Below are positions 23,601 through 62,280 of a DNA stretch of 64,000 nucleotides, in pieces. The stretch's first letter is position 1, and each line of letters starts with the position of its first letter. Source of the DNA: Candidatus Freyrarchaeum guaymasense (GTDB lineage Archaea > Asgardarchaeota > Jordarchaeia > Jordarchaeales > Freyrarchaeaceae); assembly GCA_030587405.1 (NCBI GenBank), contig JAUQZD010000056.1, positions 1 through 64,000 on the forward strand. The letters run 5' to 3'. The notes beneath the pieces were generated by a model, which had not been told where the DNA came from, ran no database searches, and was given only the letters and a program-made list of their open reading frames with translations. The position numbers and the translations under genes are program-made.

Positions 23601-23842
23601 ACTTGAGAAGTAAGTTCTAACAAAAATTAAGGCCAGTCATTAATGGTGTCATTGAACAACACACTTCCCCTTTTTCCTCTCTTAGCTCTCTCTTGCAAAC
23701 CTACCTGCAGGATGTTAAAAAAGGAACGAAAAAATGAAACGAGACTATGGAAATGATTATTAAAACTTTCTTTCAAGTCTTATTTGATTTGAACTTAAAA
23801 TTCTACATTTAGTGAATGCTGGCTTTCAGGGGAGGGAATCGG

Positions 23843-25012
23843 TTGAAGTATGGTGAAGTTCTCAGGCAGTGGCTTGATAAATGGTATGGTTTTACTGCCG
23901 GTGTGATCAGCGGATACTTCTTCGTAGACTTAAACGTCATCGGCGAAGCCGTTAAAACTCTTAAAAGTGGCAAAGTTGCAAAATCCCTTTTTAAACACGT
24001 TAAAGGCGTAGTCCTCAACCCTGAAACTGTTAGAACCTCTCAGCTTCTCCTCGAAGTTTTTTCCAATGAGGTCATCCTTAACCCCCTTTTACGAAACAAC
24101 ATGATAGCGATAACGGTGTTAGAGTCTGGGGAGAGTAAAGTTTGTGGTGTTGGCTACGGAAAAGAGAAGTGGGTATGTGTCTTCAAGACCCGCGAGAAAG
24201 AGTCAAAAATGATCGTGGCAAACTTGCTTTCCATATTAAACTTCGGCGAGAGAACCTACGAGTTTAGCGGGACGCGCATTTTCATCGATGGCTTAGAAAA
24301 ATGGTTGCGAAGGCTTTTTGGAGAGAATAATCTTGAGTACATCTGGGTGCGTAACGATTTTGAAGAGGGAGGAGTGCTGCCAAAAGATTTAAACCTTATA
24401 ATTAGAACCTTGCAGAATCTTTTCGAGGGCCCTTCCTTTGCCTCATCCCTAATGCTCTTCTTAGACCAGAAGGGGAGCAGAGGGGTATGGGGGATGCGGT
24501 ATCATGATAAGATCTCGTGTGTTTTCTCCGGGTTCGGGGGAGAATCTTATGCTAGGGAAATATCGGAGACCTTAGCGGAGGTTTATGACTGTTATACGAG
24601 CGGCCTCGTAAAGCCCGAAGTGACGGGGATTGTAGAAGCCCAGCTGGGTTTCACAAAAGAAGCTGCGTCAAAGGCTGAAATGACCGCTGAAGTCAGCTCC
24701 GAGAAGGCAGAAGCCCATCAGCAATTCTACCCTCCGCAGGATGTTTCAGAGTTAAAAGTGATACTTGAAGATCTTAAGCATAAATTTAGCCTTTTGGAGG
24801 ATAGGGTTGGTTCTTTAGAGGCAAAGTTGTCGTCTGTATCATCCCTGACAGGTTTAGGTGAGATGATGAGTAACTTAAACGAAAAGGTAAAGATGATAGA
24901 CGAGTCCATAAGCAGGGTAAGGGAACTTATGGGTGAGTTCTCCGAGAAGTTGCATGAGTTAAGACGGCAACGAAGCGAGCTCTTAAGGTCGATTGAAGAC
25001 TTGTCAAAGTAG
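23843..25012 (+). CDS. Hypothetical protein with two alpha/beta repeats and coiled-coil tail
   Basis: The TTG at 23843 after GGGGAGGG is preferred; an ATG at 23816 would add nine residues. About 389 residues. Two similar alpha/beta segments seem to be present: one near residues 60-140 (LLLEVFSNEVILNPLLRNNM, CGVGYGKEKWVCVFKTRE) and one near 190-270 (IIRTLQNLFEGPSFASSLML, WGMRYHDKISCVFSGFGGE). The C-terminal 80 residues form a coiled coil (LKHKFSLLEDRVGSLEAKL). First gene of a tight three-gene operon; function unknown. It shares its layout with the 390-residue protein at 56308. Confidence 0.65.
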   Translation: MKYGEVLRQWLDKWYGFTAGVISGYFFVDLNVIGEAVKTLKSGKVAKSLFKHVKGVVLNPETVRTSQLLLEVFSNEVILNPLLRNNMIAITVLESGESKVCGVGYGKEKWVCVFKTREKESKMIVANLLSILNFGERTYEFSGTRIFIDGLEKWLRRLFGENNLEYIWVRNDFEEGGVLPKDLNLIIRTLQNLFEGPSFASSLMLFLDQKGSRGVWGMRYHDKISCVFSGFGGESYAREISETLAEVYDCYTSGLVKPEVTGIVEAQLGFTKEAASKAEMTAEVSSEKAEAHQQFYPPQDVSELKVILEDLKHKFSLLEDRVGSLEAKLSSVSSLTGLGEMMSNLNEKVKMIDESISRVRELMGEFSEKLHELRRQRSELLRSIEDLSK

Positions 25013-25021: not shown

Positions 25022-25765
25022 ATGAAAAAAGTAATTGAATTAATTAAGCATGTCGATTCGGTTGCCTCCACCCTCACCTCTCTACTAGATGACCTTGAAA
25101 AAAGCCTCTCGTTAGCTGTTACTATTGCTGCAGAGTATAGTGACCTTTACATGCTCATTGCCACCTCCTTTGATAAGCTACTGCTAAGATATCTCAAGGA
25201 TCTAAGGGAGAAAGGTCGCTTTTCAACCCCTAAGGAAGGTGAACGCTTCATCCCCCTCATGGTCATATCAACCCAACCAGAAGATCTTTCTCCTCTCTCA
25301 AAAACAATAAAAAAATTATTTGATGAGGCGAGGAAATCCGGAAATCCATTCTACTATTTGGTTCTCCCCGACGCTGAGGGAAGAATCGAAACAGGAGAAA
25401 AAGTGGTGAAGATAATTTCTACTACTCCTTTAGGAAGAAGCGACTCTGAAGCGATCATCGTAGTTCTTAGGAGCTTTAAAGATCTTCCAACGGAAAAAAA
25501 CCTCTTAATAATTAACGACTCATTTTCTTTAGATAAGCATGGAATAATCCCGTCCCTAAAGGATTCCATCAAGAACGTAAGTATATCCTTAGATAACGAA
25601 ACATTCGGCGGAGGACCAGTAGTATACTGCCTTCACATGCTTGCAAAGAAAGGTAAAAAATCCCTCCTAGATGTAAGCCTATCCGAGAGCCTTCTTGATA
25701 ACGGTGCTGTGAAGAATATATTCCAAATTCTGACGGAAGCCGCTAGGAGAATAGCAGGGTGGTAA
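25022..25765 (+). CDS. Hypothetical alpha/beta protein of the accessory operon
   Basis: 247 residues, no recognised family. The first 70 residues are helical (VDSVASTLTSLLDDLEKSLSLA). The rest alternates strands and helices (RFIPLMVISTQPEDL, PFYYLVLPDAEGRIE, EAIIVVLRSFKDLP, KNLLIINDSFSL) like a flavodoxin or Rossmann core without a nucleotide motif. ATG at 25022 follows AGGAGGAG, 9 nt after the previous stop; its stop overlaps the start region of the giant ligase gene. Probably part of one complex with its neighbours. Confidence 0.62.
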   Translation: MKKVIELIKHVDSVASTLTSLLDDLEKSLSLAVTIAAEYSDLYMLIATSFDKLLLRYLKDLREKGRFSTPKEGERFIPLMVISTQPEDLSPLSKTIKKLFDEARKSGNPFYYLVLPDAEGRIETGEKVVKIISTTPLGRSDSEAIIVVLRSFKDLPTEKNLLIINDSFSLDKHGIIPSLKDSIKNVSISLDNETFGGGPVVYCLHMLAKKGKKSLLDVSLSESLLDNGAVKNIFQILTEAARRIAGW

Positions 25766-25767
25766 AG

Positions 25768-28700
25768 TTGGCAAGTACGCTAACCAAGCTACCGTTCACG
25801 CATGGCATAGAATCTGAAATCCAGATCGTAAACTTGAAAGGCCGTTGGATTGATGGAGAGAAAATGGTCAGCATTATGGGAAAAATAGTTCAGGATGTAG
25901 CGGAAGGTCTTAAAGGGATTCTCAGGGACCCACAGGATGAGCTCACGGAAATGATCAGCAAGAAAACCTCTAACATAAGGATCGCACCCGTAGAAAGAAG
26001 GGGTGACACCCTAATAGTAACGTACACGCTATCTAACGGCGAACAAGTTGACATCGAAATTCTTGGACGCGACCCCCATATTGGAACGATCACGTGGATC
26101 CTTGAGGCCGCCACACCGCCCTGCACTACGCTTGAAGAGCTTGCTTGGTGGATGCACACTATACTCAAACTTTCCCATGACTCGCTGCCTGCAGGAGTCA
26201 AATTCATAACGACCGGGCTAAACCCCCTGATGGAGTACCAGCAAGGTTTAAGCTTCGGCGACCACCACCATATTGGCGTCCCTGACCCAGGCTACAGGCT
26301 ATCCGTCTATAACCTTATCCGGGCATTCATACCACACTTAGTAGCTCTCTCCGTTAACTCTCCCTTCGTAGCCGGACGGCCAACAGACATCGTCACAATG
26401 AAGGATGGAAGGCTTCAGGCTCCGGGTTGCATTAGAAGCATCCGACTCCAACTTAACGCCCGACAACTCGGACCTGACGATCCCCAACATTACATTCCAC
26501 ATCTTACCTCCTTGGACGAATCTTTCTTTGAAAGGGTTGTTGGCCGTACTCCCGCCAGAATGTGTGATATGTACCCTTTTACACGCTTTAACACGGTTGA
26601 AATTAGAGTTTTTGACTCTCAAATTAGTGTGATCCGTAAGGTGGCTCTCGCAGCACTGCTCCAAGCATTAGCCCTTAAGGCCAAGAAGCTTCATGATGGT
26701 GGGGAATTAATTCCCGAAGTAGACTCTGAAACGCTCATCAAGAATAGACGTTCAGCGATCAGGTGGGGGTTAACAGGCCCCTTCTTTAAGCCTAGGAATC
26801 TTGACGAGTTCGCTAGGAAGCACCCTAACTTCGCGGCATTCTACTTTTTTGATTGCAGGCTGGGAGGGAAAGAACCTGTTAAACGCATAGTAGACGCGGT
26901 AAAAAACATGTTCTTCTTCTTGAAGGAGGAACTCGAAGAACTCGGCATTCTAAAGTCTGAGTTCCTCAGCCCGTTGTTGGTTAGCGTCTATGGGGACATG
27001 TCTGGCAAAATTATCCCGCCCATGACTACGGCTGACTATCAACTGGAGAAGTACTTCGAGCTTGGGGAAAGCATAGAAAGCCTCTCGAGAGAATTGCAGA
27101 TAATAGCTGACCAAACATGCAGCAATGTCTGGAGCGACCCTCTCTCTGGCACTCCAAACCTTCAGGAGCTAGTAGCCGTCCCAGTTTCCCTCGAATTATC
27201 GTTTGAACCATCCATCGTTTTCGAGGGACAATCGGTAACATGTAAAATATTCGTGGAGAACAAGGGCGAAGAACCCCTCAGAGATCTCAACCTTAGCTGT
27301 GTAGTCATTGATCACGCCGGGGAAGAAGTATTGGAAGAGCTCTTTACCCTCGAAACGCTGGAACCCGGTGAGAGGCGTTATGGCGAAATAGAGTTTGACA
27401 CCGAGGCAGGCGTACCTCAGTATACTCTCAGCGCCAAGCTAACAGTGTCCTCCGAGCTCGTCGCGGTGGAAAAGCTCGCAATCCCTGTATATAGGGTTGT
27501 TTGCAAGACAGACCTCATAGCCCAAGTCGACGGCGTAATCGTTACTGGAGAAACAGAGATTCCCTTTATAGTAGCAGTCGAGAACACCACCCCCCAAGAC
27601 ATGTATTTAACACTCAAAATATCCGTTGTCGACAAGGACCAGGGACGCGAACTAGACTCCGTGCTGAGTGATCTAAAGCCGTGGGGCGTCTACCTTAAAC
27701 CTATAAGGGCGAAGGATCACGCCCTTTTCGTCGCCATGTCGGAGGAGATAGCGAAGCTTGACTGGGCTAAAGCCGTGCTAGAAGGGCAAACCGAAGGGAG
27801 CTGGGTTGAAATAGACCCGTTAGTGTTAAAGCCTTGGCTTTACAGCTCTTGGATCAGTCCACGGTGTGCTATAAGAGCCCAGCTTCTAGATTCAAGTGGC
27901 CACGTGATATCTGAAAGCTGGTCTAGGGACTTCAGAGTGTTCTTCCAAGGAGCCATGGTCTCCGTTGAAGTCGGGCAGAAACCAAAGTCCACTTATAACG
28001 TAGGGGAAACATTGGAGACGTCTTTAATGGTCGATGCAAGCGACCTCCTATCCCCCTCACCGGTGAAGGTGGTAGTGAAGATCAAGTCTCCTTCAGACGA
28101 AACATTTGAAAGAAAGATTTTTGAGGCCTCGGTCAAACCAGGAGTTTCAACGACAATGCCGGTTAAATGGACTATTCCAAGGGACATCTTAGGTAAGGGA
28201 GCCGGTGAAGGCGTCTTTTACCTCACGGTTGAAGTCTTACACGACGGCGAGCTAGTTAACCTTGTCGAGGCACCTGCCAAGTTTAAAGTTGTTAGAGGCC
28301 CAGAAGTAAGCTTAAAGTGGTCTGAGGTTCCTAAAAGTTCTCTTTCAGGATCTACGATTAGGGGAAAGTTGTCGATAAGCGGTTTAAGCAGCTCCTTAAC
28401 TCCATGCTCACTCGTAATAGAGAGCACAACTGCATCCGGGTCTGAAACGGTTGCCACGATGGAACTGTCAGATCCCGTGACCGAGTCGTCAATAGATGTT
28501 CCTCCAATACCGGTTCCAAGCGGTGTTAAATCCATTCTTTTAACAGCTGCAATAATTAAAGACTCTAAGAAAATAGCTGAGGACTCCATTCAAGTCAACG
28601 TGCTGGACTTAAGGGAGGCTATAAGCGTAATAGTTCACGAGCTTCCTCCTTCCCTTCCCCCCGGCTCTCTCCACGACATAATCATCCAGATAGAGAACTT

Positions 28701-29316
28701 AACGGATTCCACCCTCAGCTTTGAACTCGCATACCGTGAGGCTGTGGACGACTTTACAGTATTAGACGGTGTAATACCCATAGAAATAGCTCCAAAGGAC
28801 AAGGTTCTCGCAAGAATACCCATAAAAGTGCCTCTATTCGCTGTTGACAAGGAGTGCGCGGTTAAGCTTGAAATTAAAAGGAATGGTGCGTCCGGCTGGA
28901 CTACTGAAAGGCGGCTTCTCGTCGAAGCAGTTAAGCCTCTTATAAGAGTGGCATACATCAGCACTCCGCCCTTGTCAGAATACATCCAGATGGAAGGCGA
29001 TAAACTAGAGTTGAAGCTTTCCCCCTCCGTTCAAAGCTTTGCCGACTACAATTTACCTGTTAGGGCTGTTTTCGCCGTGTTTGAAAAGAAGGCTAAAAAA
29101 GTTATTCTGCGGAAAACGGTTGAAACAACGCTCATAAAGGGAAACATAGTGAGGCTAACGTATGAGCCAATCATATGGGAAGTACATAAACCTAAGCAGC
29201 CTGAATCCTATTACCTGGGAATGATCTTCTTTGAAAAAGTGAAAGGGCAGCTTAAGGAGATACCCAACAAGCTAGTTCAAAACTCCCTAATAACCGTGAC
29301 GTTTACTCCATCCTAA
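25768..29316 (+). CDS. GCS2-like carboxylate-amine ligase fused to Ig-like repeats
   Basis: About 1182 residues; a TTG at 25768 after AGGGTGGT, or the GTG at 25759. Residues 10-450 match the GCS2/YbdK family (glutamine-synthetase fold): FTHGIESEIQIV, LSFGDHHHIGVPDPGYRL, HLVALSVNSPFVAGRPTD and FNTVEIRVFDSQ carry the acidic and histidine metal-ATP positions. Standard GCS2 proteins end near 370-450. Residues 470-1185 are successive beta-sandwich segments of CARDB/Ig-like type (SFEPSIVFEGQSVTCKIFVENKG is repeated in pattern). No signal peptide, so the repeats are presumably cytosolic. Last gene of the + operon, convergent with the VWA gene. Confidence 0.75.
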   Translation: MASTLTKLPFTHGIESEIQIVNLKGRWIDGEKMVSIMGKIVQDVAEGLKGILRDPQDELTEMISKKTSNIRIAPVERRGDTLIVTYTLSNGEQVDIEILGRDPHIGTITWILEAATPPCTTLEELAWWMHTILKLSHDSLPAGVKFITTGLNPLMEYQQGLSFGDHHHIGVPDPGYRLSVYNLIRAFIPHLVALSVNSPFVAGRPTDIVTMKDGRLQAPGCIRSIRLQLNARQLGPDDPQHYIPHLTSLDESFFERVVGRTPARMCDMYPFTRFNTVEIRVFDSQISVIRKVALAALLQALALKAKKLHDGGELIPEVDSETLIKNRRSAIRWGLTGPFFKPRNLDEFARKHPNFAAFYFFDCRLGGKEPVKRIVDAVKNMFFFLKEELEELGILKSEFLSPLLVSVYGDMSGKIIPPMTTADYQLEKYFELGESIESLSRELQIIADQTCSNVWSDPLSGTPNLQELVAVPVSLELSFEPSIVFEGQSVTCKIFVENKGEEPLRDLNLSCVVIDHAGEEVLEELFTLETLEPGERRYGEIEFDTEAGVPQYTLSAKLTVSSELVAVEKLAIPVYRVVCKTDLIAQVDGVIVTGETEIPFIVAVENTTPQDMYLTLKISVVDKDQGRELDSVLSDLKPWGVYLKPIRAKDHALFVAMSEEIAKLDWAKAVLEGQTEGSWVEIDPLVLKPWLYSSWISPRCAIRAQLLDSSGHVISESWSRDFRVFFQGAMVSVEVGQKPKSTYNVGETLETSLMVDASDLLSPSPVKVVVKIKSPSDETFERKIFEASVKPGVSTTMPVKWTIPRDILGKGAGEGVFYLTVEVLHDGELVNLVEAPAKFKVVRGPEVSLKWSEVPKSSLSGSTIRGKLSISGLSSSLTPCSLVIESTTASGSETVATMELSDPVTESSIDVPPIPVPSGVKSILLTAAIIKDSKKIAEDSIQVNVLDLREAISVIVHELPPSLPPGSLHDIIIQIENLTDSTLSFELAYREAVDDFTVLDGVIPIEIAPKDKVLARIPIKVPLFAVDKECAVKLEIKRNGASGWTTERRLLVEAVKPLIRVAYISTPPLSEYIQMEGDKLELKLSPSVQSFADYNLPVRAVFAVFEKKAKKVILRKTVETTLIKGNIVRLTYEPIIWEVHKPKQPESYYLGMIFFEKVKGQLKEIPNKLVQNSLITVTFTPS

Positions 29317-29447: not shown

Positions 29448-30914
29448 TTAAGCTTCTAGCCGGATGACGAGGTCCCTTGCTAATTTTTGATACCAGTTTA
29501 GCAGGTCTCCCAAGTCTTCAGCCTTATAGTAAATTCCATGTCCTTTAGTTGCTATTGCCTCCATTATCCTTTCCTGCACCTCCCCTCCAATTCCAACAGT
29601 ATATATTACTACGTCACTTCTCTTTGAGAAGTGGTCGTGAACAACTTGGACGGGTGGCCCTTCATCTCCCCAAATGTCTGGGAAACCGTCGCTTAACAGT
29701 ACGATCATGTTAGGTAGCCTTTTCCCCTCAGGCTCCTCTTTTTCCCACGTTTCTATTAGCTTTAATGCTTCCATGAGCGCCTCGGACATATTGGTGTGGC
29801 TGCTGGAAACCCTGTTAAGCCTGTCGATTATGAGCCTTCCAAGTTGCGAGACCCCCGCCATCTTGCTCTTCCCAGGATGGAAGTATGGAAGCTTCACCCC
29901 TCCTGTCATGAGGAACGTTATGGGCTCAGCTGTCTCACTATAAGTTATTATTGCCACTCTCTCTCCGTAACCGCGCCCAACCTTCTCCACCAAGTAAAGT
30001 AGCGCTGCAAACACGGCTCCAGCAACTCTTTTGACGTTTTTCCCCTCTTGGAACTGCTCCAAGAACTCCTTAATTTCAGGGATTTCCCCTCCTATCGTTT
30101 TTATGGCTTCGATCGCTGGAGCTATATTCATAACCTTCATGTCCTCCGTCAGCATGCTTCTTGACACGTCTATTAACAGGATTGCATTGAATGGAACAGC
30201 CGCCCTCCAAGGTTTGACTTCATAGCTTTTTATCTCAGCGAAGTTTATTATTCCAACCTGCCTTCCAGTTAATGGAGGCTCCGTAGAAACGACGTAAACG
30301 TTAACGTTTAGCTTAGGAAACTTCAAAACCCAATCTTTGAATATAACCCTTCCATCAAGCCAATTTTGGAATTCGTCTTTAGCGTCCAGAACCCTCCTTA
30401 TAGCCTCCTCGGCTCCCCCCTCTAGCGGCTCCACCCCGAAGACTATCTTAGTTATCTTCTGTGGTGTTCCCTCAAACTTGCCAATGTTCACCTCGAAGCC
30501 CTCATCGATGCCACATGCCTCGCTAAGGGCAGGCTCCATGACAGCGGTTCCTGGAGGAACATCTTTGTCTAGGTGGGCAAGGGCTACACCCCCCGCCCCC
30601 GAGAGTGGGTCCTCAAACTCCACTATTGACCCTTCAAGAATCTGCAGCTCTGAGGCATCCTTCTCATTAAGAGATATGTATCCTGATAATCCCTCCTTAA
30701 CAACAACTTTAAACTGCTTTTTAGGAGGCTTCTCCTCCTTAGCTTCCTCTGCTTCTTTAAACATTCTCTCGATGACTTCCTCCTCTTCCCCCTTCTTTTC
30801 CTCGACGGCTTTCTCCTCAGCGGCCTCCGCTCTCTTTTTCTTAACAGTTTTCTTAACAGCCTTCAGGGGCTTAACCTCTTTCTCCTTTTGCTCCTCGGCA
30901 CCTTTATCCGGCAT
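29448..30914 (-). CDS. VWA-domain protein with barrel-like N-terminal domain
   Basis: 488 residues. Residues 1-65 are a Lys/Glu-rich low-complexity tail. Residues 68-165 resemble a double-psi barrel as in Cdc48 N domains (VVKEGLSGYISLNEKDASEL, GSIVEFEDPLSG, GGVALAHLDKD). From about 240 a von Willebrand A domain has an intact metal site: LLIDVSRSM (DxSxS), SHTNMSEAL (threonine position) and VLLSDGFPDIWGDEG. VWA domains with MIDAS bind partner proteins through a metal. It lies 140 nt downstream of the amidohydrolase on the same strand. Confidence 0.8.
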   Translation of the reverse strand: MPDKGAEEQKEKEVKPLKAVKKTVKKKRAEAAEEKAVEEKKGEEEEVIERMFKEAEEAKEEKPPKKQFKVVVKEGLSGYISLNEKDASELQILEGSIVEFEDPLSGAGGVALAHLDKDVPPGTAVMEPALSEACGIDEGFEVNIGKFEGTPQKITKIVFGVEPLEGGAEEAIRRVLDAKDEFQNWLDGRVIFKDWVLKFPKLNVNVYVVSTEPPLTGRQVGIINFAEIKSYEVKPWRAAVPFNAILLIDVSRSMLTEDMKVMNIAPAIEAIKTIGGEIPEIKEFLEQFQEGKNVKRVAGAVFAALLYLVEKVGRGYGERVAIITYSETAEPITFLMTGGVKLPYFHPGKSKMAGVSQLGRLIIDRLNRVSSSHTNMSEALMEALKLIETWEKEEPEGKRLPNMIVLLSDGFPDIWGDEGPPVQVVHDHFSKRSDVVIYTVGIGGEVQERIMEAIATKGHGIYYKAEDLGDLLNWYQKLARDLVIRLEA

Positions 30915-31054: not shown

Positions 31055-32524
31055 TTAGGATTTCTCAAAGAGTGGCTTCAAAATGCTCCTTATTTTCTCT
31101 TCAATTTGCGCCTGTTCGCGCTCTACCTTGCTGGGCCAGAGCTTATTGTAAAACCTTTGCCTTAATGGTGAATCATCGTACGCTAACTCTCTTCTTAATA
31201 ATGTGTCTAGGCTGGTTAACTCAGAGTCTAACCGTGCTATAACTCCTATCCCACGTATTGTGAAAAACATGAGTGAAGCTTTCCTATCGTCTCCGTTCAT
31301 GCTCCTAATGGAGATGACGCAGTCTTCTCTAACGTTCGCCCTCGGCGGAGGCTGGAGGAAAGGGTCAAAAGAGGTTACATCACATTTTTTATTAGATGCT
31401 AGATTAGCTAGTTCTAAGGCTATTTTCCTTTTAACCATGGGGGCCAGCTCCCTTCTAAAATGAACCGCCTCAAGTTTAAAGGGTGCCCTCTCCAGTTTTG
31501 GAGGTATTAAGCGTAGCACGTTAACTCCCAGAATACGCTGTGCGTCCTCGAAGGTTCCAGGGAAATCTTCGCTAAGGACGTAGGAGATGAACTGTACTGC
31601 ATGTGGCACGTCGAAATATGGGAAATCTGTCCCGAATATTAACTTTTCCGACCATCTACGGTATGGTCCTAAGTTTTCGCTTAGCCTTACAGAGGCCTCC
31701 TCAAAAAGCCGTCTTATCCCCGCGTCGTGAACCCCTGAAGTTTCACCGTAAATATTAGGGTGACTTAGGATGGAGAAAAGCTCATCATGACCCACGTGAA
31801 ACCCTACATGGGCGAGTATTACCTTAAGCCTCTTCGCAAGCCTCTTATCGATGTTTGCCAGCCTCAGCTTCGCCTTAACGGTTACCTCCGCTATGTCAAC
31901 CACCTGGTTAAACCCTCTCGTATCAAAGATCACAGGAATACCTAGCTTAGCAGCTTCAACAAGAACTCTTTCTACAGGATCCGTGTTGATCTCCCCTCCC
32001 CATCCGTCAGATCTAGGATGGAGCTTTAATCCTCTGAGACCGAGCTCCTCTACCGCCCTGTGAAGCTCCCTGACAGCCACGTCCCCTTCATGCGGAACTA
32101 TACGCGCATACCCCACGAGCTTAAAGGAGTAAGGGGCGCGCGCAGTCCATCTGTAAATGTTATCGTTTGATCTCCAGTAAGTTGCTTTCCCCTCGTCTCC
32201 CTCTCTCCACTTGAACTCGTCGTTAAACGGGAAGACAACCGTCTTATCTACAGCCCAAGTTCCGTTAAGCACGTCCTTCCACTTGTCTTCCTGTTCGAGA
32301 ATCTCTTTTAAGAAGCCATGTGGCTCAGCTTTCAAGTCTACTTTCCCATCAGCAAGTATTCTTAAGAGCTGACTGGTTATCTTAAAGCAAAAGTCAAATG
32401 TTCCTCCGGGGGCAGCGGGGTTCCGATTACTTTGCCCGTCTACGTCGGCTCCTAAATGGTGATGCCCATCAACGATGTAAAACTTATAATACGCTCCATT
32501 CTCTTTATCCATGAACTCTAACAT
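31055..32524 (-). CDS. Amidohydrolase-2-like metal-dependent hydrolase
   Basis: 489 residues. A TIM-barrel amidohydrolase: the first metal motif is VDGHHHLGA (about residues 18-26), then ELGLRGLKLHPRSDGWGG, PVIFDTRGF, VILAHVGFH and IFGTDFPYFDV, the last carrying the conserved aspartate. A C-terminal alpha/beta domain (about 345-450) is extra and of unknown fold. The substrate is unknown. The gene precedes the VWA gene, and the two are found fused, in degenerate form, at 53758. Confidence 0.82.
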   Translation of the reverse strand: MLEFMDKENGAYYKFYIVDGHHHLGADVDGQSNRNPAAPGGTFDFCFKITSQLLRILADGKVDLKAEPHGFLKEILEQEDKWKDVLNGTWAVDKTVVFPFNDEFKWREGDEGKATYWRSNDNIYRWTARAPYSFKLVGYARIVPHEGDVAVRELHRAVEELGLRGLKLHPRSDGWGGEINTDPVERVLVEAAKLGIPVIFDTRGFNQVVDIAEVTVKAKLRLANIDKRLAKRLKVILAHVGFHVGHDELFSILSHPNIYGETSGVHDAGIRRLFEEASVRLSENLGPYRRWSEKLIFGTDFPYFDVPHAVQFISYVLSEDFPGTFEDAQRILGVNVLRLIPPKLERAPFKLEAVHFRRELAPMVKRKIALELANLASNKKCDVTSFDPFLQPPPRANVREDCVISIRSMNGDDRKASLMFFTIRGIGVIARLDSELTSLDTLLRRELAYDDSPLRQRFYNKLWPSKVEREQAQIEEKIRSILKPLFEKS

Positions 32525-49378: not shown

Positions 49379-49451
49379 TTATGGAAACCCCCCTTCCACT
49401 ATGCTCTTTTTTCTTAACTAGGTAAAACCTGTGATGGTACTCGATTACGTA

Positions 49452-49464: not shown

Positions 49465-49491
49465 TTCCCGTATATTTGGCTAATCAGCTAA

Positions 49492-49603
49492 GCCGGGGTG
49501 GCCGAGTGGCGAGCCCCATCTAGAGGGTGCCAAGCGGCAGGCTGCAGACCTGCTCTACCGGGGTTCAAAACCGTTAATGGTGAAACTCCCTGCCCCGGCT
49601 CCA
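49492..49603 (+). tRNA. tRNA-Cys (GCA) with D-loop and T-loop insertions
   Basis: Acceptor GCCGGGG (49492-49498) pairs with CCCCGGC (49593-49599), discriminator T, encoded CCA at 49601-49603. Anticodon arm GCAGG-CTGCAGA-CCTGC (49537-49553), anticodon GCA. T stem CGGGG (49559-49563) pairs with CCCTG (49588-49592), but 24 bases lie between, 17 more than a normal loop beginning TTCAAA. The D arm (49501-49536) is also about 19 bases too long and holds a GCCCC-CATCTAGA-GGG hairpin. Both insertions suit non-canonical bulge-helix-bulge introns; exact splice sites are uncertain. It is followed 22 nt later by the SepCysE gene. Confidence 0.85.
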
Positions 49604-49625
49604 CTACTTCTCCAATTTTTGTGAG

Positions 49626-50255: not shown

Positions 50256-50258
50256 AGG

Positions 50259-51464: not shown

Positions 51465-51546
51465 CGTTTTTATGCTGAGTTATGCATGTATATGCTGCAT
51501 TTTAGAAAAGTTTATTAAACGATCATTAATGATTTTAATGGGCTTA

Positions 51547-51578
51547 CCCTCAGCCCTCCTGAAAGGGGAAACTGAGGG
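51547..51578 (+). other. Hairpin in the leader of the TFS-like gene
   Basis: CCCTCAG (51547-51553) pairs with CTGAGGG (51572-51578), and an inner helix forms between CTCC and GGGG around a TGAAA loop. It lies 18 bases before the start codon, after the SepCysS stop at 51464. It may be a terminator-like stem or a control element of the next gene. Confidence 0.45.
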
Positions 51579-51596
51579 AAGAAGGTGATTTAAGGG

Positions 51597-51860
51597 ATGT
51601 TTTGCCCTAAAGATGGCTCACTTATGGTTCCGAAAAGGAAAGATGGTAAGACCGTTTTAGTGTGCAAGAGATGTGGGTACGAGGAAAAGGCGGCGGACGA
51701 GAAAAAGTATAAACTCGTTGTTAAAATCCCCCACACGACAAAGGATAAAACAGCAGTTGTCGAAGAGGAAATAGGAATACCTCTTAGAAGAGACGAGGAA
51801 GAAAGGGAGGAGCTCCGCCGGCAAACTCTAGAGTTCCTCGTTGAAGAAGGAGAAAGCTAA
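51597..51860 (+). CDS. TFS/RPB9-type protein with only the N-terminal zinc ribbon
   Basis: 87 residues. The start MFCPKDGSLMVPKRKDG then VLVCKRCGYEE is the N-terminal ribbon of transcription factor S/RPB9, with one Cys of the first pair replaced by Asp (CPKD). Full TFS is about 105-110 residues and ends with a second ribbon that inserts in the RNA polymerase funnel. That ribbon is absent here and replaced by a charged helix (RRDEEEREELRRQTLEFLVEE). It may bind polymerase without cleavage activity. ATG at 51597. Confidence 0.75.
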   Translation: MFCPKDGSLMVPKRKDGKTVLVCKRCGYEEKAADEKKYKLVVKIPHTTKDKTAVVEEEIGIPLRRDEEEREELRRQTLEFLVEEGES

Positions 51861-51916
51861 CCCTTACTTTCCCTCCAACATTTATTCTTTTTCTCCCCTT
51901 CTAACTGGCTACGGTG

Positions 51917-52570
51917 ATGCGCGTGACGCTTCACAAAGGAAAATTACTTGAAAAGATAAGGGACTGTATCGTACTCCTCAATGGCGGCGAACTTGAAGAG
52001 CTAATCAGGGAAGCCTTAACTGAGGGAATACCGCCATTAGAAGTCCTGAATGCAATGTCAGCTGGAATGGATGAGGTGGGAAAGAAGTATGAAAGCCAAG
52101 AATACTTTTTAAGCGAACTTATTTTCAGCGGGGAGATATTTAAGAAAGGAATGGCCCTCCTAGAACCACACTTGAAGGGGGGAAATAGCCCCCCTAGAGG
52201 AGTCGTTGTGGTTGGAACGATCGCGAACGATCTCCATGACATAGGGAAAAACATTTTTCTAACGCTCCTCATGGCCGCCGGATTTAAAGTGGTGGATCTG
52301 GGGGTGGATGTCCCACCAGAAAAGTTCGTTGAGGCGATTAAAGAGAATCACGCCGAAATTCTTGGAATTTCGGCTCTTCTAACGGCTACAGCACCTGGAA
52401 TACGAGAAGTAATAAGGCTGCTAGAGGAAAATAATCTGCGTGGACGCGTTAAGGTTATCGTCGGGGGGGCTGCTTTAACACGTGAAATGGCTGAGGAGTT
52501 CGGAGCCGACGCTTACGCCAAGACAGCTGTAGAAGGCGTTGAAGTATGTAAGAGATGGGTTGAAGGGTAA
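51917..52570 (+). CDS. Corrinoid (B12-binding) methyltransferase protein
   Basis: 217 residues from the ATG at 51917 (a GTG precedes it). An N-terminal helical cap (LLEKIRDCIVLLNGGELEELI) is followed by the cobalamin domain with NDLHDIGKNIFLTLL (DxHxxG, B12 histidine), GISALLTATAPGI and KVIVGGAALTREMAEEFGADAY. Belongs with MtaC/MtbC/MttC-type proteins carrying methyl groups from methanol, methylamines or similar. No MtaB/MttB or activating enzyme adjoins. Confidence 0.88.
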   Translation: MRVTLHKGKLLEKIRDCIVLLNGGELEELIREALTEGIPPLEVLNAMSAGMDEVGKKYESQEYFLSELIFSGEIFKKGMALLEPHLKGGNSPPRGVVVVGTIANDLHDIGKNIFLTLLMAAGFKVVDLGVDVPPEKFVEAIKENHAEILGISALLTATAPGIREVIRLLEENNLRGRVKVIVGGAALTREMAEEFGADAYAKTAVEGVEVCKRWVEG

Positions 52571-52586
52571 CCCCTCCTGCAGCAGT

Positions 52587-53534
52587 TTATCCTCCCTTTT
52601 TACTCTTTACGGTTGACCCGAACGCCTCACCTACCTCTTTAAACATTTCAAAGAATTCTTTTGGAACCACGTACTTCTTAGCCGCCCCCTCACCGATCCT
52701 GTTCAACGTTTCCAAGTACTGAAGCGTCATGGTTTTCTCGTCGATCTTCCTAGCAACGTTCATTATTCTCTCTAAAGACTGAGCGAATCCTTCTGCTCGA
52801 AGTATTGCCGCCTGCTTACTCCCCTCCGCTCTAATGGTGAACGCCTTCCTTTTCGCCTCCGCCCTTGTAACCATCGCCCTCTTTTCGCCCTCTGCTACAA
52901 GTATTGATGCCTCCCTTTTACCATCAGCTTGCGCCACGGTCGCCCTCCTAATCCTTTCAGCCTCCATCTGCCTTATCATCGCGTCCAGAACGGTTGGCGG
53001 AGGCAAAATCTCTCGTATTTCAACACCTGTAACCTTAACCCCCCACCTCTCCGTTACCTCATCGAGCTTCTCTTGGAGGACGGCGTTTATGTGCTCCCTC
53101 TCGGCAAGCACTCCATCCAAGTTTATGTCCCCCACCACCGACCTGAGGGTTGTCTGAGCTATTCCCACCGCTGCAAGCCTCCAGTTTGCAACCTTAAGGA
53201 CAGAGTCGAGAGGGTCGACAACCTTATGGTAGATTATCACGTCTATGTCAACCGGGGCATTATCTCTCGTTATACATCTCTGATGAGGCACTTCAAAGTA
53301 GTCCTCCCTAAGATCCACCTTAACCATCCTATCAATAATGGGTATCAGGTAGACGATTCCTGGGCCTTTAACGTTTGGAAGAGCTCTTCCAAGCCTAAAT
53401 ACAATACCTCTCTCGTACTCCCTTAAAATCCTTAAACCACTAAGCAAGATCAACGCCACGAAAAAAAGGATCACCACTAGAGCCATGAGGAAAGGTGTCT
53501 CAGCAATCCCTTCTTGAAGAGGCAAAAGCAACAT
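52587..53534 (-). CDS. Stomatin/prohibitin-family (SPFH) membrane protein
   Basis: 315 residues: one N-terminal membrane helix (about 15-36), SPFH domain beginning ILREYERGIVFRLGRALPNVKGPGIVYLIP, with ITRDNAPVDIDVIIYHKVVDP, then a long coiled-coil part rich in Ala, Glu and Arg (REASILVAEGEKRAMVTRAEAKRKA). Forms membrane microdomains and helps a partner protease. No NfeD-type gene adjoins. ATG at 53534 after GGAGGGG. Confidence 0.92.
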   Translation of the reverse strand: MLLLPLQEGIAETPFLMALVVILFFVALILLSGLRILREYERGIVFRLGRALPNVKGPGIVYLIPIIDRMVKVDLREDYFEVPHQRCITRDNAPVDIDVIIYHKVVDPLDSVLKVANWRLAAVGIAQTTLRSVVGDINLDGVLAEREHINAVLQEKLDEVTERWGVKVTGVEIREILPPPTVLDAMIRQMEAERIRRATVAQADGKREASILVAEGEKRAMVTRAEAKRKAFTIRAEGSKQAAILRAEGFAQSLERIMNVARKIDEKTMTLQYLETLNRIGEGAAKKYVVPKEFFEMFKEVGEAFGSTVKSKKGG

Positions 53535-53757
53535 TTACCCCTCCTTCTTGAAGAAGGAAGCCTTCCATCCTTAAGAACATTTCCCATTTACTATCTTCCA
53601 CCATATTCTTGCTTCTTTCCAGCATCAAGCTCCCATCACATAACACCATATAAGTATCATAAGTATCTTTTTTAAAGAATGAAGTTAAAGAGTAAAGGTA
53701 AAGAATAACAATTCAAAGGGAGATGCGTCTTCACTTGTCTAAGAGTGAGGGAGAGAA

Positions 53758-56304
53758 TTGTTTTTCATAGAGGTTGCTGGGCGCGAAGAAGACGTATATG
53801 TTGTTGATGTTGACGCGCAGGTTGGCGTCGGGTCTGGCGCCATAAGCAAGTCCTATAGCATAGATGAAATACATGACTTAGCTAGGATGCTTGAAGGAGA
53901 CCTAGCCATCAAAAGCGCCTCCCTTAAACATCCAATCGTAAGGTTTAGCTCAAGCTTCTTCTTCGAGCTTAGGGAAGATGTAAGTAAGAGAAGCCGCCTC
54001 GTAGATGAATTCTTCATTTCACCTTTCGTTACTAAAATTGCCAGTGGTGGGGGGGACGTAGAATACATAGTTGAAGAGGTTACTAGAAATAACGAACTTG
54101 TGTTACGATGGCAGAGAAATGTAAAATTCTTTAACTTTTCCTCTTTCCGCTACATTCTCCCGGGCGAAGTACCGGATGTCCCCTACCTTGTCCTAGAAGG
54201 GTACAGGGGGGCGAGAGTTAAAATCGTTGACTCACCATGGTTCACGACTCTCTACTCTGACCTCTCTTATGTTAGGATGCCCCTGATCGTAGAGGTTTTC
54301 AGCAGGAGGGGGCTTGACCAACTTGAAAGGTTTGTTGAGGGTAACGAGGTTGGCGGTAAGCTTGAAAACCCCGTGATCGTGATCCCCTACATTAAAGAGA
54401 CCATAAGACCAGAACTTTACGGTTTCATGGGCGTCGGAAACGTCTTCCTCTCCCTTTCCCCAATGCCTCTAACCTTCGTAAAGCAAGTTATTTACAGTTT
54501 AAGTGAAATGGAAAAGGAGTGGTTTAAGCGCCTCGTCTTCGGAACAGGCTTCCCTTACTCCAGCGTTGAGGACGTTGCAAAAACGATCCTGTTCTTTTTA
54601 GGTGAGGACTTCCCCGGCGGACTGAGGGAGCTTAGGTGGATTATGGGGTTAAACGCCGTCTCCCTCCTCCCCCCCAAAGCGGATCGAAGAGGCGGCGTCG
54701 AACAAGAGGACAGATGCTTCATGGTCGATGCTAAAGTTTCTAAAAAGTTTCTTTCATCTTTTAAAGACGTGATGACGCATGCTTTAAAAAGGGAGTCTAT
54801 AGCAGTAACCGCATGTGACTACTTAATAGACATGCATCAAGAAAAAGTGGACTTGGGGAAGTGCTTCATCAACCTTGCTTCCACGAGAGGCGAGAAGAAG
54901 GTGGGAAACATACTTGTTTTAGCTGGCCGCGACACTTCATCACCACTAATGCTACTCTTGCTAAAACTCGAAACAGTCAGAAAAATTAGAAGCAGGTTTA
55001 CCGAAGACATAGCTAAAACGCCTGAAATCAGAAGCGCGATATCACGTGCCGTAAAGGTTTTATCAGAGGAAGACGCCGAGCTAACTCTACAGGAACTCAT
55101 CAATCACTTTAAAGATACAAGTCTAATCAGCCATGAGGACGTAAACTTATTTACAATTCACACCTTTCAACTTGGCAGGAAAGTGGCTCAAATGAATGAC
55201 CAAGACATGCGGCTACTAAACCTTAAAAACGGCGACTTAGCATTGGTTAGGGTAACCCTAACCGGAGACTGGTATGTTGTCCCGGTCACATCGGGAGAAG
55301 ACGTTCTCGGAGGAGAACTTCACGTAGACGAAGGAGTAATCAACAACTGGTATGTTTTTGATGGCGACACTGTACATGTTGAAAAGTTTGAGGGAAACGT
55401 GCCAATGTTAGAAGAAGTTAGCTTCGTGGTCGAGGAGAATGAGGGGAGAATAGGCAACGTTGAGGAGGTTCTCGAAGACGCCCTAGACGGTATCATAGTC
55501 GGCAAAAACTCTAGGTTTGTCTTACCTGAAACAGAAAGGATACCTCCTGTAGCGATCGTAGCCAGCATGGACCCAGAGTTTTCCACAGTCGGATTAGTTA
55601 AGAAAGGGAAGACAAGGGTGCGTGTCGTCTCAAAGGCAGCCTTAAAACCATATAATATGATTTTCGCCATAGACCTCTCAGAAAACATGGGTAAAGGATC
55701 TTTACCTCTTAAAGACCGAGGCTTGCTCAACGAATTGAAGTCTCTTGCACCTTCAAGGATAGACCTATTAGAGGGCGAATTTATTAGACGGAACATAGGT
55801 GCTGCCCTTATATCCTGTTGCCTGCTTACAAGAGCAGCCAAGCTAAGCCGTCTACGTAAGATATTCTCTATAACATACTCGAAGGAGGCAAGCTTATTCT
55901 CAATTCTTGAACGGCGAAGGATATCTCCCTACTTAGAGCTAACCCCGCAAAAGAAAAACATCGTGTTGAAGGTTTTATCATCACATATATTTGACAAGTG
56001 TAGGGAGCCGGGAGTGGGAAAGGGGGACCTAACTGGAGTCTTAGAAAAAATAAGAGAAATATTAGAGAACTTAAAGGAAAGTAACCCAGTAGTAGTCCTC
56101 TTCATGATCCCCCAGGAAAATGTTGATGAAACGCTTAAAGCAGTTTCCCCATTAAAAAATGACAGCCGCGTCAGATCAGCTTTGGTATGTCTAGGAGGTG
56201 ACGGTGTTCAAGAGGTTGAAGAAGAGAATTGTATTTACGTGAATGAAATCAGCGTAGCCGCCCTTGATCGGCTAGTAGACATGATTCTCGGCCTGATAGA
56301 ATAA
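53758..56304 (+). CDS. Fused degenerate amidohydrolase-VWA protein
   Basis: 848 residues from a TTG at 53758 after GAGGGAGAGAA. Residues 1-410 resemble the amidohydrolase at 31055: LVFGTGFPYSSVEDVAKTI, EDFPGGLRELRWIMGLNAVSLLPPK, and a C-terminal domain beyond. But the HHH metal motif reads DVDAQ and the GTD aspartate is G (GTGFP). Residues 465-848 match the VWA gene: barrel-like part near 470-560, then FAIDLSENMG near 636, where DxSxS is broken. All this argues for a scaffold, not an enzyme. Co-directional with the 390-residue gene 3 nt downstream. Confidence 0.82.
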   Translation: MFFIEVAGREEDVYVVDVDAQVGVGSGAISKSYSIDEIHDLARMLEGDLAIKSASLKHPIVRFSSSFFFELREDVSKRSRLVDEFFISPFVTKIASGGGDVEYIVEEVTRNNELVLRWQRNVKFFNFSSFRYILPGEVPDVPYLVLEGYRGARVKIVDSPWFTTLYSDLSYVRMPLIVEVFSRRGLDQLERFVEGNEVGGKLENPVIVIPYIKETIRPELYGFMGVGNVFLSLSPMPLTFVKQVIYSLSEMEKEWFKRLVFGTGFPYSSVEDVAKTILFFLGEDFPGGLRELRWIMGLNAVSLLPPKADRRGGVEQEDRCFMVDAKVSKKFLSSFKDVMTHALKRESIAVTACDYLIDMHQEKVDLGKCFINLASTRGEKKVGNILVLAGRDTSSPLMLLLLKLETVRKIRSRFTEDIAKTPEIRSAISRAVKVLSEEDAELTLQELINHFKDTSLISHEDVNLFTIHTFQLGRKVAQMNDQDMRLLNLKNGDLALVRVTLTGDWYVVPVTSGEDVLGGELHVDEGVINNWYVFDGDTVHVEKFEGNVPMLEEVSFVVEENEGRIGNVEEVLEDALDGIIVGKNSRFVLPETERIPPVAIVASMDPEFSTVGLVKKGKTRVRVVSKAALKPYNMIFAIDLSENMGKGSLPLKDRGLLNELKSLAPSRIDLLEGEFIRRNIGAALISCCLLTRAAKLSRLRKIFSITYSKEASLFSILERRRISPYLELTPQKKNIVLKVLSSHIFDKCREPGVGKGDLTGVLEKIREILENLKESNPVVVLFMIPQENVDETLKAVSPLKNDSRVRSALVCLGGDGVQEVEEENCIYVNEISVAALDRLVDMILGLIE

Positions 56305-56307
56305 ACG

Positions 56308-57480
56308 GTGATCCAGTTTAGTGGCTTTCATATGATGTTGCTTACTAAAGAAAAGTTTATCCAACTGTTCATGCATATTAACTTTAGAGCCATCTTGTGT
56401 GGGTTGAATATGTCAAGCGGCTCTGAAGTAGAATTTGAACCCTGGAGTCGAAGGTCAATCATTGCTGGAAGCTCCTACGCCGTCCAGATAGGGAAGGTTA
56501 ATGGTGAGTGGGCTGTTTGCATCTACAGAGGGAGAGAGGTTGTAGGAGTTAGAAAAACAGGTACGCTCGACATCAACGTTCTTACCTCTGTGGTTTACAA
56601 TAGCATGGCGCTTCCAATGTCACATTACAGCATAATGAGAGCCCTAAGTAACTTAATAGTGGAAGCTAAAACTAGAAATCGGCCTATAACGGCTGAAGCC
56701 CCCCCAAGACCCGCCTCAGAGCCTGCTCCTCAGCCTCCTTCACAGCTAGGGGAGGCGGCTGCCGCCGTTCAGCCGCAACCATTAGAGCAAACAGCGGATG
56801 TGCAGCCTCCACCAGCTCCTAAAATTAAGATCGAAGAGGCGGAAGGGGAAGCGCCTAGTCCCGTGGCCGAAGTTAGCGAAGGCATGGAGTCTGTTGGGGA
56901 AAGCTTTTACGAGTTCTTTAAAAGAAGCGAGCTTATTGAGGAAGAAACCAAAGCTGCTGAGCAGCTGGTTGAGGAGGAAACTGGAAAAATAGAGCTTAAA
57001 TTAGAGGACATCCCTCTTCCGGAAAGGTGGAATAGGAGTATTTCGAGCCTTCTCCTTCTCTGGGGTATTTCGGTCTCGTTCATCATGGAGAAAACAAAGA
57101 AGAAGGCTGATGAATTGTGGAGCTACTACAGGGATCTGATTAGGAAGTCTTGGAGTAAGGTGAAAGAGAAAAGCTTTGAAAATGTGGTGAAGCTCTTCAT
57201 GCATCAGTGCCGGTTGATAGGTGCAGAATACGATGTTAAAGAGTTTACGAGCAGAAGCTTCAAGGCGGAAATAAAATGTTTAGGGTCAGCGTTTAAGGAG
57301 AGATATAAGGGACTCCTCAATCTTCCGTCAGAGTTCCCATGCATAATATGTAAAATGCGAGGCGAGGAAATAGGGAAGCTATATGGTTTCACCGTCACCG
57401 TCGACGAGGCAGATGGTGGATGTAAAGTGAGGATGCAGGCTCCTCCCAAGGAGAGAGGCGAGGAACCAATTATCATTTAA
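56308..57480 (+). CDS. Hypothetical partner of the fused protein
   Basis: 390 residues from a GTG/ATG region at 56308; ATG at 56410 (MSSGSEVEF) is a later alternative. Residues about 45-130 form an alpha/beta segment (SSYAVQIGKVNGEWAVCIYRGREV, then SIMRALSNLIVEAK) similar in plan to the 23843 protein. Next comes a Pro/Ala/Glu-rich linker (about 140-240) and a C-terminal helical-plus-sheet domain (FENVVKLFMHQCRLIGAEYDVKEF, FPCIICKMRGEEIGKL). No family recognised. Starts 3 nt after the fused protein, so co-expressed. Confidence 0.6.
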   Translation: MIQFSGFHMMLLTKEKFIQLFMHINFRAILCGLNMSSGSEVEFEPWSRRSIIAGSSYAVQIGKVNGEWAVCIYRGREVVGVRKTGTLDINVLTSVVYNSMALPMSHYSIMRALSNLIVEAKTRNRPITAEAPPRPASEPAPQPPSQLGEAAAAVQPQPLEQTADVQPPPAPKIKIEEAEGEAPSPVAEVSEGMESVGESFYEFFKRSELIEEETKAAEQLVEEETGKIELKLEDIPLPERWNRSISSLLLLWGISVSFIMEKTKKKADELWSYYRDLIRKSWSKVKEKSFENVVKLFMHQCRLIGAEYDVKEFTSRSFKAEIKCLGSAFKERYKGLLNLPSEFPCIICKMRGEEIGKLYGFTVTVDEADGGCKVRMQAPPKERGEEPIII

Positions 57481-57483
57481 GCT

Positions 57484-58680
57484 TCAACCACTTCTTTTCC
57501 TTTTCATAAATTCCTCTAACCTGTTAAACGCTTCCTCTAAGATATCCACTGTTGGGAGGAAAACCATCCTAAAGTGCCATCCCCCATTCTCCCCAAAACC
57601 CGACCCATTAACCAGGAGTACGCCCGCGTCGTTAAGCACCTCAATAACAAACTCTAAGTCGTCTCTCCACTTTCTAAGGTTTATCCTCGGGAAGACGTAG
57701 AATGCCCCACGGGGCTCCTCACAGTGGAATTCGTGGATCTCGCTTAAACGTTTAAAGGTGTAATCTCTCCTTTCCCTCAGCGCGGAAACGAGTTCCTTAA
57801 CGTGTTCTTTTGAACCATTAAGTGCTGCCGCCCCTGCCACTTGAGCTGGAACATTAACTGAAAGCCTCACCCGTGCTCCCTTCACAACTCCCTCCTTCAC
57901 ATCCTGAATGACTCCTTCTGGATCATGAAAGTAAACATACCCCAGTCGCCATCCAGGAACCAGGTAAGTCTTAGAGAGCCCATTGAGACCTATTACAGGT
58001 ACGTCTCCAGCAAGCGACGCGGCACTTCTAAACCTCCCCTCATAAACTATTTGGTCGTAGATCTCGTCGGAGACTATGGGGACGCCATACTCCCCCGCCA
58101 CATCTACTATTTCCTTAACCCTCCTCTCAGGGTAAACTGAACCGCATGGATTATTAGGGTTGATTAAGAAGACAGCCTTAACATTTTCATCCATCTTACT
58201 CCTCAGGTCGTCCACGTCAGGCGTCCACCCCTCATCCTCCAAGCACCTATAAGTTCTAATCCCAACCCCGTTGAGGGCTGCGTAGGATCTGTAAGGTGGA
58301 TAGGTGGGGTCTGGAAGCAGTACTTCGTCGCCTGGATCCGCTAACGCTTGTATTACAAGCTGTATTCCCTCTGAGACCCCCGCTGTAGCTATCACATCAT
58401 CAGGGGTTATACTAGTCACCTCGTTAACTTCCCTCTCTTTCCTGCAGACAGCTTCTCTAAATTCAGGGATGCCCTCCGAGGGGGCATACCCGGCACTCCT
58501 CTCCATCACGGCTTTAACCATGGCCTCCCTCACGTGGCTTGGCACCTCGAAGAAGGGTGCAGGGTCGCCTATGTTCAAGTAAATGATCTTCCGCCCTTTC
58601 TCCTCCAAGCGCTTAGCATGAACTATAAGATCCCTTATCGCATATTTCACACGCGAAATCCTCTCGCTAGCCTTCCCCAC
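57484..58680 (-). CDS. Class I/II aminotransferase (alanine/aspartate type)
   Basis: PLP enzyme of 398 residues. Landmarks: IIYLNIGDPAPFFEVPSHV, ATAGVSEGIQLVIQAL, ALADPGDEVLLPDPTYPPY, FLINPNNPCGSVYP, the LNGLSKTYLVPGWRLGYVYF stretch with the PLP lysine, and the C-terminal arginine region (WHFRMVFLP). This pattern suits AlaT-like alanine or aromatic aminotransferases; the amino donor cannot be told from sequence. Stops 4 nt after the previous gene, convergent. Confidence 0.9.
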   Translation of the reverse strand: MGKASERISRVKYAIRDLIVHAKRLEEKGRKIIYLNIGDPAPFFEVPSHVREAMVKAVMERSAGYAPSEGIPEFREAVCRKEREVNEVTSITPDDVIATAGVSEGIQLVIQALADPGDEVLLPDPTYPPYRSYAALNGVGIRTYRCLEDEGWTPDVDDLRSKMDENVKAVFLINPNNPCGSVYPERRVKEIVDVAGEYGVPIVSDEIYDQIVYEGRFRSAASLAGDVPVIGLNGLSKTYLVPGWRLGYVYFHDPEGVIQDVKEGVVKGARVRLSVNVPAQVAGAAALNGSKEHVKELVSALRERRDYTFKRLSEIHEFHCEEPRGAFYVFPRINLRKWRDDLEFVIEVLNDAGVLLVNGSGFGENGGWHFRMVFLPTVDILEEAFNRLEEFMKRKRSG

Positions 58681-58732
58681 GTTTAATACTCCCTCCAGTC
58701 AGGGTTTTACGAATCCCTAAAAATAATGCACC

Positions 58733-60181: not shown

Positions 60182-60252
60182 CCCCCTGAAACCAATAATC
60201 TTTATATTTGTTTTTTAAAGGCTGTTTTATCGTCCCTCTAGAGGTGTGGTTT

Positions 60253-62270: not shown

Positions 62271-62280
62271 GGCGTTCACG

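Follow-up and report, generated by a model that had tools for sequence, protein, structure and literature searches.

A doubly degenerate fusion of amidohydrolase and VWA partners as a candidate non-catalytic subunit of an Asgard gene module

In a 64,000-nucleotide window of Candidatus Freyrarchaeum guaymasense (GenBank assembly GCA_030587405.1, contig JAUQZD010000056.1, positions 1 to 64,000), one gene encodes an 848-residue protein, here called the fusion. The same window encodes an amidohydrolase and a protein that combines a CDC48 N-like domain with a von Willebrand factor A (VWA) domain. Profile alignments indicate that the fusion copies the amidohydrolase from end to end, accessory domain included, and continues into a copy of the CDC48-N-like/VWA protein. 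Metal-site residues have been lost from both halves. With modest confidence, we favor the view that the fusion is a pseudoenzyme derived from one duplication and end-to-end fusion, and that it has a non-catalytic role, as scaffold or regulatory subunit, in an Asgard module of amidohydrolase, VWA protein and GCS2-type ligase.

Pairwise BLASTP comparison of the fusion yielded 41% identity to the amidohydrolase over 58 residues (E 5e-13) and 20% identity to the VWA protein over 320 residues (E 1e-7). In profile-profile alignments, fusion residues 1-454 align with amidohydrolase residues 1-488 (99.9%, E 8.9e-37), and fusion residues 459-813 align with residues 62-444 of the VWA protein (100%, E 1.3e-39). 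Since these alignments span both parents nearly end to end, the colinearity covers almost the whole of both, and the domains follow the order in which the two parent genes are transcribed. An earlier note, made from the letters of the window, had proposed both the colinearity and this order, and had named profile searches placing the halves in unrelated families as the contrary outcome; instead, both halves match the parents it named. The amidohydrolase TIM barrel fold of the Amidohydro_2 enzymes, the Rossmann fold of VWA proteins and the CDC48_N N-domain fold are all present in the fusion, and the CDC48_N profile PF02359 scores 18.5 bits in the window fusion, below its curated cut-off of 35.1. 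In a protein collection, the fusion has one identical entry and six full-length relatives (49-53% identity), of which five have 847 or 848 residues and one has 856. The three named relatives belong to Candidatus Jordarchaeales or Freyarchaeota, and a contig search found the fusion encoded in three metagenome-assembled genomes named Jordarchaeia or Jordarchaeum.

To describe the two metal sites, we compared 37 fusion rows (>820 residues, from 64 distinct open reading frames (ORFs) or pieces; 36 genes, G185 being counted twice) with 49 stand-alone amidohydrolases (440-560 residues, from 73 distinct ORFs) and 44 stand-alone VWA rows (380-760 residues, from 64 distinct ORFs; about 35 genes after repeats). 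Handles beginning with G and L denote genomes and loci, respectively. Five positions, H, H, H, H and D, which we take to be metal ligands as known for the amidohydrolase family, are complete in 49/49 stand-alone amidohydrolases and in 0/37 fusions. Likewise, the five residues of the metal-ion-dependent adhesion site (MIDAS) are complete in every stand-alone VWA row and in none of the fusions, which retain none of them in 21 rows, one in 8 and two in 8, a maximum of 2/5. In the window fusion, DGHHH has become DVDAQ, GTD has become GTG and DVSRS has become DLSEN. The earlier note had already read these losses from the sequence, and the alignment adds K155 and P210 at the remaining two amidohydrolase ligand positions as well as G756 and P785 in the MIDAS T and D columns, the alignment of these last two being less sure.

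Might the fusion nevertheless catalyze or bind metal through other residues? We think this improbable. Barrel parts are strongly conserved within Jordarchaeia, and an HxH motif is kept in the fusion orthologs of G077, G078 and G079, the only ones among the 37 rows, both of which would suit a residual activity. Against it, the fourth His and the last Asp, after the last strand, are gone in 37/37 fusions, and the lineages share no other conserved set of polar residues: the N-half columns that stay invariant in the fusion alignment are D17, G23, D83, P175, P205, W255, F261, P266 and N299.

We then asked how widely the fusion occurs among 227 Asgard genomes. A fusion profile of 25 rows (E<=1e-25) matched 69 of them, 51 with the fusion and 18 with plain VWA genes only. 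Eight of the fusion genomes are Jordarchaeia-type and 43 belong to the group G180-G226, taken to be Thorarchaeia-type from a protein search with the G213 copy, whose named relatives are mostly Thorarchaeota, with one Promethearchaeota and one Hodarchaeota. Matches cover nearly the whole profile in 45 of the 51 genomes. In G186, profile positions 2-725 of 879 are matched though the ORF has 862 residues, and the fusion is split or cut in G076, G182, G192, G200 and G223.

Ratios of nonsynonymous to synonymous substitution rates (dN/dS), obtained by a counting method for nine Thorarchaeial pairs (seven of the nine for VWA), were 0.072-0.174 (fusion), 0.054-0.146 (amidohydrolase) and 0.013-0.065 (VWA protein), with dS >1 in three of the nine pairs, where synonymous changes are near or past saturation. 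For the pseudo-amidohydrolase half of the fusion alone, the range was 0.04-0.12. Constraint on the fusion is thus about that on the amidohydrolase and weaker than that on the active VWA protein, and these values rule out relaxed selection on the fusion. Across lineages, the fusion diverges faster than its parents: between the window and the Thorarchaeial stretch L096, identity is 21% for the fusion, 37% for the amidohydrolase and 34% for the VWA protein. This faster divergence, together with the destruction of both sites, is what one might expect of a fusion that arose by chance or is in decay and has no importance. That idea is barely credible; it is contradicted by the dN/dS of 0.07-0.17 and by the occurrence of the fusion in 51/227 genomes, in 45 of them over nearly the whole profile.

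The phylogeny of each half bears on the origin of the fusion. In the tree of the VWA half, every fusion falls on one side of one branch with support 100; in that of the amidohydrolase half, the corresponding branch has support 99, and a more careful tree of this half (15/37 fusions and 19/49 amidohydrolases) recovered the same branch with support 100/99. For the same selection, we used approximately unbiased (AU) tests in which Jordarchaeial fusions were forced to group with Jordarchaeial amidohydrolases, or Thorarchaeial fusions with Thorarchaeial ones. Origins separate by lineage were rejected in both cases (p 0.0007 and 0.0026, respectively). Together, the trees and AU tests therefore favor a single old fusion event, followed by descent, loss or transfer.

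The genomic company of the fusion suggests a tie to a module. Searches of the 227 genomes matched the amidohydrolase in 131 (E<=1e-12; a few of the weakest matches, e.g. G005 and G163, may be other amidohydrolases), GCS2 in 130 (E<=1e-20) and VWA in 124 (E<=1e-20). All three are present in 112/227 genomes and none in 85/227; since the genomes are related to one another, the odds ratios overstate the independent evidence. Of the 39 Thorarchaeia-type genomes that have both genes, 38 have the fusion and the amidohydrolase next to each other and divergently transcribed, their matched stretches lying 161-222 bp apart. G210 is the exception, its fusion stopping ~100 bp short of a contig end. The amidohydrolase is followed by VWA in all eight Thorarchaeial junction stretches read (L095-L100, L114, L115), with a HEAT-repeat protein, a CAAX-protease-like protein, NfeD and SPFH in the surroundings, and GCS2 lies ~8-10 kb from the junction where it is on the same contig. 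In G079 and G075, one contig holds fusion, amidohydrolase, VWA and GCS2.

Beyond the Thorarchaeial fusion, away from the amidohydrolase, lie a protein without a Pfam family, a degenerate CDC48N-VWA relative and a VWA_4 protein. The degenerate relative (L096:12387-13514, two genes from the fusion on its 3' side) has no Pfam match, and its profile, built from four aligned sequences, aligns along its entire length with the VWA family (E 2.3e-22) and matches the fusion at E 3e-16. Such a paralog would fit an assembly of several paralogous VWA-type subunits. The VWA_4 protein (L096:13529-14671), third gene beyond the fusion in Thorarchaeia, has a weak Ig-like match.

A competing account gives the fusion an independent structural or signaling role, perhaps that of a binding hub on a membrane platform of SPFH/NfeD, with no contact with the active proteins and with its position inherited; we consider this possible, though the less likely course. 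Three Thorarchaeia-type genomes, G183, G186 and G188 (L108, L109, L110), speak for it. There the fusion outlives the amidohydrolase and VWA genes, Thorarchaeial queries for which match only the fusion itself, and it is kept next to HEAT with SPFH and other flanking genes in place. In at least three genomes, the fusion therefore does something without the active pair. An SPFH gene near the fusion in both lineages points the same way, as does the group G180-226, in which no amidohydrolase was found without the fusion at the thresholds used. However, an adjacency as tight as that in the 38 genomes is hard to keep by inertia. Furthermore, the fusions of the three genomes are more diverged (31-35% identity to L096, against 39-54% for others and 81% for the close relative G215), while their SPFH and HEAT proteins are not; but the fusion of G217, with the active pair present, is equally diverged (31%). 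An acceleration of fusion evolution following loss of the pair is thus only suggested.

The same three genomes count against the reading of the fusion as a subunit of the amidohydrolase-VWA-GCS2 module, and other observations join them. G214 retains only fragments of the pair, an amidohydrolase match of 74 residues next to the fusion and a VWA match of 70 residues at another place; its assembly may be rearranged. In G160, which is related to G076-079 and has an assembly in pieces, amidohydrolase, VWA and GCS2 are present while the fusion was unmatched. In Jordarchaeia, fusion and amidohydrolase are separated by 12 kb (G075) to 21 kb (window). Finally, only a short branch, flanked by long stems, joins the two fusion groups; the program flagged it, and long-branch attraction is therefore possible. 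The earlier note had taken the residue loss to suggest a scaffold or regulatory copy. Loss of both sites, co-occurrence and the 38/39 adjacency uphold the part of this idea that makes the fusion a non-catalytic partner; G183, G186 and G188 speak against an obligate scaffold for the active pair.

We propose that a co-directional amidohydrolase-CDC48N/VWA gene pair was duplicated and fused end to end, most likely once and earlier than the split between the Thorarchaeial and Jordarchaeial copies. The product would then have lost its two metal sites, while purifying selection kept both folds. The pseudo-amidohydrolase and pseudo-VWA halves may present docking surfaces akin to the ones on the active amidohydrolase and VWA protein, so that the fusion would probably bind its parents' partners and tether or modulate a module that includes the GCS2-type ligase. 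The data show the history of the sequence, its homology and colinearity, the loss of residues, its conservation, and its co-occurrence and adjacency with the active genes. What we infer concerns binding to the active partners, its stoichiometry, the substrate, the role in the cell and a location at an SPFH membrane platform. Pseudoenzymes and gene fusions are known kinds; this one is dead at both sites and comes from both partners of a widespread Asgard module, whose amidohydrolase, VWA and GCS2 genes each occur in more than half of the genomes searched. Kept next to its active parents, and in some genomes persisting without them, the fusion is a natural experiment on the function of such a protein. 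The features concerned are listed in Table 1.

Table 1. Genes and domains of the fusion and its module in the window
Feature	Positions	Strand	Remark
398-residue protein, C-terminal coiled coil	23816..25012	+	found in 9/227 genomes searched
247-residue protein, adjoins GCS2 in Jordarchaeia	25022..25765	+	weak relative (E 1.3e-5) next to GCS2 in L114, a Thorarchaeia-type stretch
GCS2/YbdK-like carboxylate-amine ligase, C-terminal Ig-like region; third module member	25759..29316	+	
CDC48-N-like + VWA protein, MIDAS intact; parent family of fusion C half	29448..30914	-	
Amidohydrolase (Amidohydro_2), active-type, all five metal ligands present; parent family of fusion N half	31055..32524	-	
SPFH/Band-7 membrane protein next to fusion in Jordarchaeia	52587..53534	-	SPFH also in most Thorarchaeial stretches read
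Fusion, probable pseudoenzyme, 848 residues	53758..56304	+	TTG start
Fusion residues 1-310, TIM barrel of amidohydrolase type, metal ligands absent	53758..54687	+	D19, Q21, K155, P210, G264 replace H, H, H, H, D
Fusion residues 318-454, counterpart of amidohydrolase C-terminal accessory domain	54709..55119	+	profile alignment to fusion 454 / amidohydrolase 488
Fusion residues 459-625, CDC48 N-like domain	55132..55632	+	
Fusion residues 626-848, VWA domain, degenerate MIDAS	55633..56301	+	D639, S641, N643, G756, P785
Downstream neighbor, probably 356 residues (listed as 390, GTG 56308..57480)	56410..57480	+	alignment of homologs

The separation of the fusion from its parents in the window reflects a rearrangement. 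All 13 ORFs of at least 100 residues in 49626-64000 are collinear with G075 264980-279325, G075 being a Jordarchaeia genome. Of the 21 such ORFs in 23816-49378, 18 map in reversed order to G075 263027-242872 and 3 are unmatched; orientation is also reversed for all but one of the 18 (41947-42513, 30% identity). Left of 23816, no window ORF of this size has a match in the 93 kb of G075 compared. By this comparison of gene order, window 23816-49378 is a ~25.5-kb inversion relative to G075, with breakpoints near 23105-23816 and 49378-49626, that cuts a single cluster in two. The gene for the 398-residue protein adjoins the homolog of the gene at 49626 in G001, G002, G003 and G075, and the window order is therefore the derived one; the inversion might conceivably be a feature of the assembly. 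The region around the fusion, which the earlier note had described as a second accessory locus, is in this light one part of a split cluster.

The gene directly after the fusion was listed as encoding 390 residues. Its homologs begin at, or a few residues from, M35 of the window protein (alignment A4), and the true start is therefore probably the later one given in Table 1. A homolog lies directly after the fusion in G001, G002, G003 and G075, and one gene further in G077 and G079. The window member has no Pfam match, other members have scattered weak matches only, and comparison with PDB sequences gave nothing better than E 0.5. In the survey, 110/227 genomes were matched, mostly through weak matches (mostly E 1e-3 to 1e-8) to its N-terminal stretch. 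Its C-terminal part has a conserved CxxC (C345, C348) plus C324 and C372, possibly a metal or redox site to judge from the residues. To the earlier note, this protein looked like a partner of the 398-residue one (its 23843 protein). No similarity between the two was detected: hhalign gave a probability of 0.4% and BLAST an E of 0.056, in the coiled coil, and the two share only their neighborhood. For the 398-residue protein, a 414-residue neighbor of the Thorarchaeial fusion (L096:11149-12390) with a C-terminal coiled-coil-like stretch aligns by hhalign at 51% (E 1.5e-4), which is only suggestive of a distant counterpart. Profile comparison found no Thorarchaeial counterpart of the 390-residue protein.

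Other observations concern the wider surroundings. A second amidohydrolase-VWA-GCS2 set occurs in Jordarchaeia genomes (L106, G075:C2:336000-352000; L118, G002:C33), whose amidohydrolase and VWA proteins are about 32-36% identical to those of the first. Window 32797-34347 encodes a MuiA-family protein (TIGR02231 E 5.6e-61, over cut-off) whose gene points away from the amidohydrolase gene, and window 50259-52570 encodes an O-phosphoseryl-tRNA:Cys-tRNA synthase (SepCysS, over cut-off) next to a methyltransferase corrinoid protein. An anti-phage defense function found no support among PADLOC models, none of which was matched by the fusion, VWA, amidohydrolase, GCS2, 356-residue or 247-residue proteins; the sole match was a weak one of the 398-residue protein, in its coiled coil (E 0.005). 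A literature word search found no description of an amidohydrolase-VWA-GCS2 set of Asgard archaea, and the word amidohydrolase is missing from the main text of the Jordarchaeia paper PMC9723677.

Among the closest known systems are Amidohydro_2 (PF04909) enzymes, such as 3cjp, 4dlf and the dihydroxybenzoate decarboxylase 2dvt. Unlike these, the window fusion is without all five catalytic metal ligands and is joined to CDC48N and VWA domains. Asgard CDC48N-VWA proteins (from Jordarchaeales, Freyarchaeota, Lokiarchaeia and Heimdallarchaeota) have the latter two domains in the same order, and precomputed Pfam annotation assigns CDC48_N and VWA to six of them (P0083-P0088); in contrast to the fusion, their MIDAS is intact and they have no amidohydrolase part. 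CDC48/p97 and NSF, ATPases with a comparable N domain, differ from both the fusion and the VWA proteins in having an AAA ATPase domain. The window GCS2 protein resembles YbdK/GCS2 ligases (PF04107 over cut-off; TIGR02050 E 5e-24, below cut-off), and is set apart from them by its long Ig-like C-terminal region and its Asgard neighbors.

A more distant resemblance, to DEPDC5/Iml1, comes from structure models, and we treat it as a possibility without claiming membership. Foldseek searches with a model of the active VWA protein (predicted local distance difference test (pLDDT) 78.7, predicted template modeling score (pTM) 0.54) placed 9o5e_H (E 5.5e-12), 9v0j_C and 8ae6_W first, over 430-456 columns and with E to 2.2e-10; p97 and NSF chains score just behind. 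From entry titles and length, we presume these three chains of GATOR1/SEACIT entries to be DEPDC5/Iml1. For the fusion model, rank 1 was 9xzy, DEPDC5 by its entry title. Whole-chain superposition on DEPDC5/Iml1 is poor (root-mean-square deviation 12-16, template modeling (TM) score 0.24-0.27), so the orientation of the domains differs. DEPDC5/Iml1 was not among the best 60 of 65 PDB sequence matches of the VWA profile, and DEPDC5 was not among the 50 VIA-align matches listed for either model, lists that single domains fill and that exclude nothing. The IML1 model PF12257 was over its cut-off in 0/13 Asgard genomes, with chance-level matches in 3/13, as in 3/14 controls. A literature word search found no work linking Asgard archaea with DEPDC5.

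The order of folds in the N-terminal domain (NTD) and SABA of DEPDC5/Iml1 nevertheless appears to be that of the CDC48N-VWA tandem; in one review, the DEPDC5 NTD is likened to a Sec18/NSF domain and SABA to a Sec23 domain (PMC8534245). Unlike DEPDC5/Iml1, the Asgard proteins have no SHEN, DEP or C-terminal domain (CTD), the window fusion and VWA ORFs ending with the VWA domain. It is conceivable, if rather doubtful, that the NTD-SABA core of DEPDC5/Iml1 has its archaeal homologs in the Asgard CDC48N-VWA proteins, among them the C half of the fusion and the degenerate Thorarchaeial paralog. In that case, the module would represent an Asgard forerunner of the scaffold from which eukaryotes made the nutrient-sensing GATOR1/SEACIT complex, and the fusion would be a second scaffold subunit, derived from an enzyme, that links ligase/hydrolase metabolism to it. 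If the resemblance to DEPDC5/Iml1 is homology, it bears on the origin of TORC1 nutrient sensing.

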